A stretch of 37,209 bases of DNA from Bacteroidales bacterium (lineage in GTDB: Bacteria; Bacteroidota; Bacteroidia; Bacteroidales; Muribaculaceae): assembly GCA_029007645.1 (NCBI GenBank), contig JAQXIE010000004.1, forward strand, positions 1-37,209. The letters run 5' to 3'. Every line of letters begins with the position of its first letter. Positions within the stretch are counted from its first letter, which is position 1. Positions 4,622 through 37,209 of this stretch are shown in pieces. Below the pieces are notes generated by a model that saw only the letters and a list, made by a program, of their open reading frames with translations, made no database searches and was not told where the DNA came from. The translations under genes and the position numbers were made by a program.

Positions 4622-5500
4622 CTATCTCTCGACCTGCCCGCCGAGCAGATCCAGCAGTTCGGCAGTGATGCTCTGCTGGCGCAGCTTGTTGTATTCAAGC
4701 TGCAGCTCGTCCTCCAGTTTCTTGGCATTGTCGTTGGCTGTCTGCATCGCCATGACACGCGCAGCTTGTTCCGATGCCCGGTTCTCAATGGTAATCTCCT
4801 GCATCGTCGACTGAACGAACATGGGCAAGACCGCATTGAAGATGCTGTTGGCGTCCGGTTCGAATATGTACAGCTGGTTATCCGTCCCTTCGGCCGCCCC
4901 TCCGAGCAATACGTCTGAACTTACGGGGAACAACTGGTCGAGTGTCAGTTCCTGACGGCTCATCGACTTATACTTCATGTACACGACATCCACCAGATCG
5001 AGCTCGCCCGAAATGAATCTGTCGCGCACGGCATATGTGAAGTTCCGCACGGCCTCGCCGTTCATTTTGCTGTCCACCCCCGCGGGGACCTCAACCGTCA
5101 CGCCGTCAAGCTTGCGCACGGCCCTCGCTATCTTCTCGCCCACAGGGTAGACTGTGATCTTCACGCCAGGATATTCCCGGCGCAAGCCGTCAAGCTTCTG
5201 GAGCAGGCCCTTGAAGATATTGATATTATATGCGCCGCACAGACCGTCGTCCGAACCATACACTATCACCGCCGCCGTCTGAACGTCGCGGCTCTCGATC
5301 AGAGGCGACTGAAAATTCTCCTCCGCTCCGAGTATATGGCCCATAATCTGGGTCAGCTTCGCCCTGTAAGGCTGAAGCTGTTTCAGCTGCTGTTCGTTCT
5401 GATGGACCTTGGCCGACGAAATCATCTTCATCGCGCCCGTGATCTTCTCAGTCGACGCTACCGACCCGATTCGGGTTTTGAGTTCCCTTAACGTTGACAT
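4622..5500 (-). CDS. atpG: ATP synthase F1 gamma subunit
   Basis: Central rotor shaft of F1, 292 residues, normal for the family. The N-terminal helix (ELKTRIGSVASTEKITGAMKMIS) and the C-terminal helix (ARVMAMQTANDNAKK...) form the coiled coil inserted into the alpha3beta3 ring. LCGAYNINIF is the conserved Rossmann-like strand. It starts 12 bases after the atpA stop and is the last atp gene of the block, which is the usual Bacteroidales position. Here it is followed by nuoI. Confidence 0.97.
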   Translation of the reverse strand: MSTLRELKTRIGSVASTEKITGAMKMISSAKVHQNEQQLKQLQPYRAKLTQIMGHILGAEENFQSPLIESRDVQTAAVIVYGSDDGLCGAYNINIFKGLLQKLDGLRREYPGVKITVYPVGEKIARAVRKLDGVTVEVPAGVDSKMNGEAVRNFTYAVRDRFISGELDLVDVVYMKYKSMSRQELTLDQLFPVSSDVLLGGAAEGTDNQLYIFEPDANSIFNAVLPMFVQSTMQEITIENRASEQAARVMAMQTANDNAKKLEDELQLEYNKLRQQSITAELLDLLGGQVER

Positions 5501-5512
5501 GTAGTTTCTCTA

Positions 5513-7096
5513 TTATTTAGAATTTGCAATGCCGTCCGCAACTTCCTTGGCTGTCGTCGTCAGGAGTTCCTCGACCTCGGGCGTGAGCTTGCCCGTTGCC
5601 AGAACATCCAACGTCTCCTTGCGGTACTTCATTTTCAATGCCTGCAGATACTGCGTCTCAAAATCATGCACCTTGTCCAGAGGCACGTTGCTGAGCAATC
5701 CGTGGGTACCGGCGTAGATCACAGCCACCTGATCCTCGACGGGCCAGGGATGATACTGCGGCTGGCACAGGATCCTCTGATTCTTGCGGCCGCGGTCGAT
5801 CACAGCTGCCGTCACCGGGTCGATATCGCCGCCGAACTTGGTGAACGACTCGAGCTCGCGGAATTGAGCCTGGTCGGTTTTCAGCGTACCGGCCACCTTC
5901 TTCATACACTTGATCTGAGCGCTACCGCCCACACGCGACACTGAGATACCGACGTTGATGGCAGGGCGGATACCCTGATTGAACAGTCCCGTCTCGAGGA
6001 AGATCTGTCCGTCGGTGATCGAGATCACGTTCGTAGGTATATAAGCTGAAACGTCGCCGGCCTGGGTCTCGATGATAGGAAGGGCCGTAAGCGAACCGCC
6101 TCCCTTGACGCGCGACTTCATGGCCTCGGGCAGGTCGTTCATCTGCTCGGCCACTTTCTGGTCGCTGATGATACGGGCGGCACGTTCCAGCAGACGTGAG
6201 TGCAGATAGAAGATATCGCCGGGATAGGCCTCGCGGCCCGAGGGACGCTTCAGGATCAGCGACACCTCTCGGTACGCCACAGCCTGCTTCGACAGGTCAT
6301 CGTAGATGATCAGCGCGTCACGGCCCGAGTCACGAAAGTACTCGCCGATAGCCACGCCCGAGAAGGGGGCGAAGTATCTCATCGAAGCCGATTCCGACGC
6401 ATTGGCCGCAACCACTACGGTGTAGGGCATGGCACCGAATTTGTCCAGAGTGGCCACGATGTTGGCCACTGTCGACGCCTTCTGTCCGATTGCCACATAT
6501 ATGCAATATACAGGTTTGCCGGCTTCGTAATTGCTTTTCTGGTTGATTATGGTATCGATGGCGATTGCCGTTTTACCGACCTGACGGTCGCCGATGATCA
6601 ACTCGCGCTGACCGCGGCCGATAGGTATCATGGAGTCCACGGCCTTCAGACCTGTCTGCAGAGGCTGGTTCACCGGCTGGCGGAAAATGACACCCGGTGC
6701 TTTACGCTCCAGCGGCATTCTGATGCGCTCGCCCTCGATCGGCCCTTTGCCGTCGATCGGTTCGCCAAGCATGTTGATGACACGCCCCAGAAGGCCCTCG
6801 CCTACCTCGATCGAAGCCACTTCGCCCGTCCGCTTCACCGACATGTTCTCGGTGATGCTGTTCACGTTGTCGAGAAGAACCACTCCGACGTTGCTCTCCT
6901 CCAAGTTCAGAGCCACGCCCTTGGCGCCATTCTCGAACTCCACGAGCTCATTGCTGCGCACGTTCTCAAGTCCGTAGACATGCGCAACGCCGTCGCCCGC
7001 GTTCAGAACGGTGCCGACCTCTTCGAACTTTATCTTTGAGTTGATGTTCTCAAGCTCCTGCTTCAGCACATCAGATATTTCACTAGGGTTAAGCAT
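5513..7096 (-). CDS. atpA: ATP synthase F1 alpha subunit
   Basis: Non-catalytic nucleotide-binding subunit of F1, 527 residues. The P-loop [15 protein letters not shown] is present, as is the [16 protein letters not shown] segment with the arginine finger that completes the catalytic site of beta. The N-terminal beta-barrel (residues ~25-95) and the C-terminal helical domain are intact. It starts 4 bases after the atpH stop and ends 12 bases before atpG. All landmarks of a functional alpha subunit are seen. Confidence 0.98.
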
Positions 7097-35533: not shown

Positions 35534-36688
35534 TCAGAACATCACTTTCATGCTCTTGCCATCCTTAACTACAATGTTGAGGCCCTTCTCGGGTTTGTCG
35601 ATGCGCACGCCCTGCATGTTGTAATACTTTACAGCGCCGTTTGCAACCGTCACACCTTTCACGCCAGCACTCTTGGCATCGTAGCTGATCACGTAGATCG
35701 AAGGAGCATCCTGATATACGGTTACCAGTACCAGCATGTCGTATGTGCCGGCCGGTACGGATGCCAGCTCGTAGTTGTTGCGGAAATTCAGCGTCACGCC
35801 GTCGCTCGTGCCAGTAAAGTTTTCCTTGGCGCTCGGAGTTTCGGCAGCAAACTCTACCCTGTCGATCTCAATGACATTGTTCACAAGTGCTGTAGTCACG
35901 TCAGCAGCGGCGACAACCTTGGGTGTAAATGAGCCGTTCTCGGTCGATGCGGGGAATGTGGTCACGGGTTCCAGCTCCGGAGTTGCTCCCTGATAAAGCT
36001 TGTAGGTGGCATTATAGCCGGCAGGGATGATATTGCCAGTGGCATATTCATTGGCGCCGTACAGCTGGATGAAATCACCCGCAGCATCGCATGCGTAAAC
36101 ATTGTTGTAGCGTACGAATGCCACTGTCATCGGGAAGTTCACCTTGACCTGGCTGTCGGATGACACTGCCAGAATTTCCTTGATGCTGTTGACTTCAGTC
36201 ACCGTGGGAGGAGCGATCGTAGCCTCGTCGCTGACAACTACCTTCTTGATACGAAGCTGCTTCTCCTCGGCCAATCCGGTGAAAGTCTTGCTTCCGGCAG
36301 CGTTGGTGCAAGTGTAGAGATTCTCTGTCAGAGCGCCTGTCCATCCATCGGAAAGCGTCATCGTGCCAATATACTGGTTATCGTTGTAAGTATCGTATGT
36401 TATGGCGATACATTTCATATCCACGCTCTCAGATGTGATCGTGAATGAAGTTCCCTTGTAGACTCTCCAGGAATTCTTGTTGTCGGCCGGACTTACCAGA
36501 TTGGTTGCTGTCGTACTTACCTTCTGGGTTGTGATTGTGAATCCGTTGGCATCCTTTGCTCGGCTCCAGCCTGCGCCGTCACCTGTCCATTCTCCGGCGT
36601 TCGAGATATCGAACACCGTATACTCAGTGGCATTCGCACCGAGAATACCAAGGGCGGCAACGCCCATTGCGAGTAAAAATTTTTTCAT
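35534..36688 (-). CDS. Secreted protein with C-terminal sorting-like domain, function unknown
   Basis: 384 residues. The signal peptide is residues 1-20 (MKKFLLAMGVAALGILGANA). Residues ~25-155 are a beta-rich domain with many Thr/Trp/Tyr. Residues ~160-320 include a segment VNSIKEILAVSSDSQVKVNF...VYACDAAGDFIQLYG that looks like an OB-fold domain. The last ~35 residues, VKYYNMQGVRIDKPEKGLNIVVKDGKSMKVMF, resemble the YYNxQGxR...GxYI end found on many Bacteroidales extracellular proteins, like a short type IX sorting domain. It has its own promoter and terminator. The substrate or partner is unknown. Confidence 0.88.
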   Translation of the reverse strand: MKKFLLAMGVAALGILGANATEYTVFDISNAGEWTGDGAGWSRAKDANGFTITTQKVSTTATNLVSPADNKNSWRVYKGTSFTITSESVDMKCIAITYDTYNDNQYIGTMTLSDGWTGALTENLYTCTNAAGSKTFTGLAEEKQLRIKKVVVSDEATIAPPTVTEVNSIKEILAVSSDSQVKVNFPMTVAFVRYNNVYACDAAGDFIQLYGANEYATGNIIPAGYNATYKLYQGATPELEPVTTFPASTENGSFTPKVVAAADVTTALVNNVIEIDRVEFAAETPSAKENFTGTSDGVTLNFRNNYELASVPAGTYDMLVLVTVYQDAPSIYVISYDAKSAGVKGVTVANGAVKYYNMQGVRIDKPEKGLNIVVKDGKSMKVMF

Positions 36689-36785: not shown

Positions 36786-36850
36786 ATTCCAAAAATAGGT
36801 TAAATCAGAGCCACCTGCCTTTGCCGTTCTTTAGACCATGGACTAAATGC

Positions 36851-37022
36851 GGGTCAGCGGATTTTTCCGGTGCATGGCATTTTTATGGCGGTGTGGACAC
36901 CGCCGTTAGTAGCTGGCGATATTGGCGACGTGGACGTCACCGCTCCAGTTGCCTACTGGAATGACGACGTCCACGTCGTCTAAGTAAGAAAAACGCTATG
37001 CACCGGAAAAATCCGCTGATCC
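36851..37022. repeat. Nested inverted-repeat element, possible structured RNA or MITE-like repeat
   Basis: Outer arms 36851-36884 and 36989-37022 pair over 34 positions with 3 differences. Inside are four hairpins: 36887-36904 (7-bp perfect stem, loop TGGA), 36924-36941 (GACGT/ACGTC core), 36945-36959 (CCAGT/ACTGG) and 36963-36980 (GACGACGT/ACGTCGTC). The second and fourth are also complementary to each other over about 13 bases, giving an alternative long-range fold. Two of the three arm differences are G-U pairs when read as plus-strand RNA. No gene of useful length is encoded. This fills most of the non-coding gap between the secreted protein and the 5S gene. Confidence 0.8.
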
Positions 37023-37040
37023 GTGAATTGGTTTAACTTC
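37022..37040 (+). repeat. 19-bp copy of internal 5S rRNA sequence
   Basis: Bases 37022-37040 are identical to 37146-37164 inside the 5S rRNA gene, same orientation. A plus-strand transcript would be perfectly antisense to 5S rRNA over these 19 bases. The copy directly abuts the right arm of the inverted-repeat element. Confidence 0.92.
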
Positions 37041-37046
37041 AAAAAT

Positions 37047-37072
37047 AAAGAGCTGAAAAAAAGATCTGAAAA
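37047..37072. repeat. 13-bp tandem repeat beside the 5S terminator
   Basis: Two units, AAAGAGCTGAAAA (37047) and AAAGATCTGAAAA (37060), followed at 37073 by AAAGAGCCGACTT, the first arm of the terminator. The units look like degenerate copies of that arm's start. Confidence 0.65.
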
Positions 37073-37099
37073 AAAGAGCCGACTTAAAAGTCGGCTCTT
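37069..37099 (-). terminator. rRNA operon terminator
   Basis: Arms 37074-37084 and 37089-37099 pair over 11 bases (core GAGCCGACT/AGTCGGCTC) with a 4-base loop. On the minus strand a run of seven T (complement of 37069-37075, partly inside the stem) follows. It lies a few bases after the 3' end of 5S rRNA. Confidence 0.9.
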
Positions 37100-37103
37100 C
37101 TTA

Positions 37104-37209
<106 letters not shown>

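Follow-up and report, generated by a model that had tools for sequence, protein, structure and literature searches.

A probable MITE-like element with ISL3-type ends and an interior of three REP units beside a 5S rRNA gene in an uncultured Bacteroidales lineage

The window (the whole stretch of DNA that was analysed, 37,209 nucleotides) contains an element of ∼172–174 bp (36850–37023) adjoining a 5S rRNA gene. This element is probably a MITE-like, non-autonomous DNA element, with the ends of an ISAon1-group (ISL3-family) insertion sequence (IS) and an interior cassette of three REP units. The shell and the REP units are separate families, each dispersed in the genome, and the REP-bearing shell is found at several sites with different flanks. 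A sequence-only reading had described a nested inverted-repeat element next to the rRNA genes and offered two alternatives, a structured RNA or a non-autonomous mobile repeat. The element is real, and the mobile repeat is the better supported alternative, in view of its dispersed copies, IS-end arms and high-copy palindromes; the structured RNA is not supported, for reasons given below. That reading missed that the shell belongs to one family of repeats and the interior to another.

The long, near-perfect outer stem reported earlier is formed by two arms of 35 nt each (TIR-A), which are 91% complementary and enclose 104 nt. The left arm (36850–36884, plus strand) and the inverted right arm (36989–37023, minus strand) were both identified by an inverted-repeat search and by copies in the same genome, the left arm also by IS ends in relatives. 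The interior hairpins are likewise present, as three palindromes and a CCAGT/ACTGG hairpin between the second and the third. REP unit 1 (36887–36904, minus strand) is the palindrome GGCGGTGTGGACACCGCC; its right-side tag is degenerate in the window element and intact in copies C29, C43, C54b and C73a, from which its strand is assigned. REP unit 2 (36924–36949, minus strand) consists of a palindrome with one mismatch (36924–36941) and the tag ACTGGAGC, read on the minus strand (36942–36949). REP unit 3 (36955–36980, plus strand) consists of the tag ACTGGAAT (36955–36962) and the palindrome GACGACGTCCACGTCGTC (36963–36980). Units 2 and 3 form an inverted pair with facing tags, and their palindromes start 39 bp apart. 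MITEs are about 70–300 bp in length, with terminal inverted repeats and no coding capacity; the element has 174 bp, 35-bp arms and no overlapping ORF of at least 90 aa, and judged by sequence its shell looks like a MITE.

An Rfam search places a partial 5S rRNA gene at the end of the window (37104–37209, minus strand), with a terminator-like inverted repeat past its 3′ end (37071–37102). Between this repeat and the element is a 19-bp exact copy (37022–37040) of an internal piece of the 5S gene (37146–37164). The copy abuts the right arm and may be a relic of a former location within such a gene. A similar 5S-like flank is seen by eye at the C102 copy (L006, near 1490–1510), whose alignment to the query reaches 37032. 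On the other side of the element from the 5S gene is an ORF of 384 aa (35534–36688, minus strand), for which a Pfam search gave no match at E 0.001.

A search of the element's own genome with a 192-bp region covering it produced 75 alignments, both strands counted, which split into two families, and the earlier suggestion that copies of arms and hairpins be sought thus points to a repeat. The TIR-A arm occurs at 12 places in this genome (up to 3 mismatches; control 0). In other members of the genus, the same sequence forms the ends of insertion sequences of the ISAon1 type (ISL3 family). The clearest case is a complete IS with TIR-A at both ends (L078 in G026), where ORFs of 126 aa and 319 aa match ISAon1_upstream and ISAon1_downstr, both over the cut-off, as well as DDE_Tnp_ISL3. 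Pieces of ISAon1 ORFs lie beside the TIR-A end at 10 of the 14 relative loci checked and are absent at 4, several loci being cut by contig ends. Across the genus, the 192-bp region matched in 12 of 111 genomes including its own; among the remaining eleven, the match lies in the arm in nine and in the palindromes in G005 and G074. In some relatives (L091, L076, L077 and L075), the IS copies have part of a second end, reading GGGTCA or GGATCA, ∼16–17 bp outside the TIR-A end, which may reflect a preferred target or be a leftover.

The element's own assembly has ISAon1-type genes on C10, C7 and C42 but yielded no autonomous element bearing TIR-A. The ISAon1-type element on C10 has different ends; therefore, the autonomous partner either is lacking or was left out of the assembly. 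ISL3-family elements duplicate 8 bp of target on insertion; among the five copies with both ends, a plausible duplication is seen only at C29. Copies C4, C29, C43 and C54b, together with the one-armed C73a, carry three palindromes in identical order, while C54c has two. The outer flanks of the copies sharing the three-palindrome order match one another only over 10–16 bp at E 0.1 or worse. The common order and the differing flanks fit movement of the whole unit, although such sequence comparison falls short of proof. Searches further afield returned no stretch with the TIR pattern in a genome-contig collection and no exact REP or TIR pattern in a viral-contig collection, the own genome possibly being absent from such collections. 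A phage search for one window gene had no match and is uninformative on the element, and a literature search on ISAon1 found nothing.

The interior palindromes belong to a much larger family. The palindrome GRCGRYGTNNACRYCGYC has about 106 matches (up to one mismatch) in the 2.0-Mb genome, compared to 3 in the control, and thus shows the high copy number of a REP family. The REP-like unit is composed of a tag, ACTGGRNN, and an 18-bp palindrome. After removal of 6 units with two mismatches and a poor tag from the 97 palindromic units found, 91 were retained, including a few probable chance matches (e.g. C11:2400, C54:262 and C55:7686). ACTGG, with four or more of its five letters matching, precedes the palindrome on its 5′ side in 78 of the 91, a conserved tag as in REP families, which sets the orientation of the unit. 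The loop reads CC rather than GG in 75 of the 78 tagged units and is a sign of polarity independent of the tag. The tags read ACTGGAAT, ACTGGAGC, ACTGGGGT, ACTGGAAC and similar; since they are neither GTAG nor CGTC, we file these REPs under neither super-family. Neighbouring tagged units face each other tag to tag in 32 of 38 cases, 29 of them at a distance of 38 or 39 bp.

The combined tag and palindrome pattern (up to one mismatch) was detected in 8 of 111 genomes of the genus: 77 matches in G000, 49 in G005, 15 in G074, and a single one-mismatch match in each of five others. Among the matches listed for G005 and G074, nine pairs have their tags outside (six at 34 bp), and in three the tags face each other. 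A family-wide search for the 57-bp REP pair with facing tags, allowing up to 3 mismatches, found it in one of 397 genomes, its own. The genome-contig collection contains eight stretches with the REP pattern, from the MAGs UBA3318 (six) and RUG14134 (two). At two places, G005:C44:17173–17206 and G074:C46:14928–14961, forward and reverse REP matches overlap, so that the palindrome is tagged on both sides; these units resemble the ‘double foot’ REPs, with a tag on both sides, described in PMC6006769.

The palindromes were gathered into 44 clusters in the own genome. Within 260 bp of the clusters, TIR-A is present at 10 (both sides of 5) and another inverted repeat, TIR-B (GCCACAGAYCCTGCTGACGCAGG), which is unrelated to TIR-A, at 15 (both sides of 10); among the remaining clusters, 3 have a third flank sequence in common and 16 lack all of these. 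In 880 trials with shuffled flanks, the three flank types were matched 9, 3 and 3 times, respectively. Two neighbouring clusters on C103 probably have one TIR-A in common. REP units lie beside or between the TIR-B arms. A survey of 18 TIR-B loci, chosen from 24 matches, found REPs close by at 10, a tagged REP only ∼450 bp away at C55:8107, and no tagged REP at 7 (C29, C73, C96, C106, C13, C27 and C93). Among these 7, an untagged palindrome lies near the C13 locus, and the C93 locus is truncated by a contig end. At one locus (L214 1501–2135, G000:C96), two TIR-B ends 612 bp apart surround a 138-aa ORF, possibly encoding a GxxExxY-like protein. A further repeat around CTGAACTTACAGATTTACACAGAATTA lies beside REPs and TIR-B at L012, L018, L049 and similar loci, and the genome as a whole seems rich in mosaic repeats.

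A candidate transposase for the REP units is encoded on C53. A Y1-transposase search of the genus gave five matches in the own genome, one of which is this gene (C53:5436–6062), whose 208-aa HUH/Y1 product resembles REP-associated tyrosine transposases (RAYT). The protein scores 39.5 bits against PF01797 (cut-off 23) and 65.8 bits against the NCBIfam model REP_Tyr_transpos (NF047646), where the cut-off of 80 is not reached; among PDB structures the best match is TnpA_REP (4er8, E 0.039), not significant alone. REPs of the type found in the window element flank the gene on both sides, as a pair upstream (6227–6282) and as units downstream (5407–5424, 5310–5365 and 5212–5267). With 44 clusters in 2.0 Mb, or about one per 46 kb, flanking on both sides is unlikely to have arisen by chance. 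In an alignment of the C53 protein and 16 homologues from other genomes of the genus (35–46% identity), the HUH residues N123, H124 and H126, as well as Y184, are invariant in all 17.

We analyzed the flanks of these 17 homologue loci, leaving out second copies in G065, G051, G064 and G096. Recurrent hairpins lie near the gene at 13 of the loci, mostly with a different sequence in different species. GGR occurs within 7 nt of the hairpin foot, on one side, in 51 of 58 recurrent compared to 12 of 46 non-recurrent hairpins of the same flanks (Fisher p 8e-11), a comparison that is post hoc, since the rule was framed after the hairpin data had been viewed, and in which the copies per locus are not independent. 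The majority of recurrent hairpins are GGR-tagged at 11 of the 13 loci, the exceptions being G064 and G070. Two findings complicate this picture: G005 carries the REPs, but a search there gave no full-length homologue of the C53 transposase, and beside the G074 homologue no hairpin recurs over flanks of 600 and 350 bp.

These observations suggest how the composite could have arisen. The RAYT would act on single-stranded DNA, cutting and copying the tagged REP hairpins. A REP cassette would most likely have ended up in the loop of an IS-end palindrome, after which an ISL3-type DDE transposase would have amplified the composite in trans, the REPs travelling as passengers. REP insertion may prefer palindromes, as suggested by the parallel with TIR-B and by a precedent in section 7 of PMC3733652.

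A less likely origin, to which we give limited weight, is that the whole unit is a REP/BIME-type mosaic moved only by the RAYT; the TIR-A arms would be a palindromic target and the shell would never have moved. The lack of clear target duplications agrees with such a mosaic, as does the presence of REPs next to TIR-B arms or between them (15 of 44 clusters, 10 of them on both sides) and the REP dimers within longer palindromes described in section 7 of PMC3733652. However, independent insertions would not give five TIR-A copies with the same order of three palindromes. The match between TIR-A and IS ends also argues against the mosaic, as does the fact that none of the 12 own-genome TIR-A matches is a copy without REPs.

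Less probable still is a structured non-coding RNA, or a terminator- or attenuator-like RNA serving the rRNA operon or the adjoining gene, an idea to which the position beside the 5S rRNA and the very strong fold lend some appeal. The 192-nt region folds at −118.1 kcal/mol, compared to a mean of −58.95 kcal/mol for shuffled sequences (z = −14.1, none of 200 shuffles equal). However, the strong fold is not strand specific, because the minus strand also folds well (z = −12.8). The G-U tolerance earlier attributed to the plus strand carries little strand information: in the plus-strand RNA fold, 34 arm pairs comprise 32 Watson-Crick and 2 G-U pairs, and of the three arm differences, two are G-U on this strand and the third would be G-U on the other. 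The proposed two-state fold is energetically upheld and is in keeping with an RNA; palindromes 2 and 3 reach −38.9 kcal/mol as one long hairpin versus −23.5 kcal/mol when separate, with the tag hairpin. Across units, the REP stems fall into three main variants, with pairing preserved at positions 2, 5 and 6. Such paired changes could speak for an RNA, but they would be equally expected if DNA hairpins are read as single strands by an HUH transposase, as described in PMC6006769. Over seven copies, two without most of the left arm, 93.6% of cells in the outer arms are paired, and in the same copies these arms covary no more than shuffled letters (0.036 vs 0.036), so the covariation check proposed beforehand turned out negative for them. 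At the gathering score, Rfam gave no family on the element, in agreement with the earlier failure to recognize one, the sole match in the window being the neighbouring 5S rRNA. Together with the dispersed copies at unrelated places, these results argue against the RNA, which we reject as the main explanation since the arms do not covary beyond shuffles and both strands fold well. Any effect of the element on the neighbouring rRNA operon or gene is unproven and would be secondary. An RNA specific to rRNA was also considered and discarded.

The 18-bp palindromes at a near-fixed spacing of 38–39 bp recall a CRISPR-like or integron-like array, which we regard as extremely improbable, as the clusters collected contain no more than three units at this spacing and are dispersed, and the pieces between units are alike and contain inverted tags. 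A coding repeat was considered as well, the 39-bp period being frame-preserving by eye, and was discarded.

The MITE-like composite that we favour has parallels in several known systems. REP sequences and REPINs, with their RAYT (TnpA_REP) transposases, are treated in PMC3733652 (with the anatomy of REPs and REP dimers in sections 7, 14 and 16) and in PMC6006769. The repeats described here share with them a short palindrome tagged on one side, a copy number of about 100, inverted pairs able to fold jointly, and a Y1 gene flanked by the same repeats; they differ in the tag, which is ACTGG or GGR-like rather than GTAG or CGTC, in the arrangement of three units within an IS-type TIR shell, and in a transposase under the NCBIfam cut-off. 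Subclass 2.6 of TnpA_Y1 (Bacteroidetes, atypical secondary structures), as described in the text of PMC6006769, is similar in its phylum, in flanking repeats without GT[AG]G and in copies elsewhere in the genome, and its atypical repeats may overlap with the GGR-tagged REPs. Compared with the text description of that subclass, however, the C53 lineage has an HUH-to-Y distance of about 60 residues rather than a median of 82, and a Y motif of YILNNP rather than YIH[QN]NP; its motifs NHVH and YILNNP resemble subclass 2.7 of the same text.

Like MITEs of the ISL3-family/ISAon1 group, the element is short (about 172 bp), is bounded by long inverted repeats that match IS ends and contains no long ORF; unlike them, it carries a REP cassette, and neither an autonomous partner nor regular target duplications were found. 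REP dimers at the centre of a longer inverted repeat are described for GTAG-15 of Anabaena variabilis and CGTC-1 of Halothiobacillus neapolitanus in section 7 of PMC3733652. The present case is similar to these, but its outer repeat can be recognized as ends of the IS type, and another inverted repeat, unrelated to the first, is also used. MITEs, REPs and RAYTs are known kinds; their combination is unusual. In the literature searched, including passages of PMC3733652 and PMC6006769, no description was found of ISL3-type ends around REPs or of the GGR tag of this Bacteroidales lineage.

More tentatively, the element could be one of a class with two engines, in which GGR-tagged REP cassettes sit in the loops of TIR-A or TIR-B and the composites are amplifiable both by the HUH/Y1 transposase, via the REPs, and by a DDE transposase, via the TIRs; GGR might then represent a third super-family beside GTAG and CGTC. 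An uncultured Bacteroidales lineage gains a candidate REP-RAYT system whose tag belongs to neither of the super-families described so far, and which residues of the transposase read the tag becomes a testable question. Two transposition systems appear to have one element in common, which is a possible route for the hitch-hiking of REPs and for the origin of complex MITE interiors.
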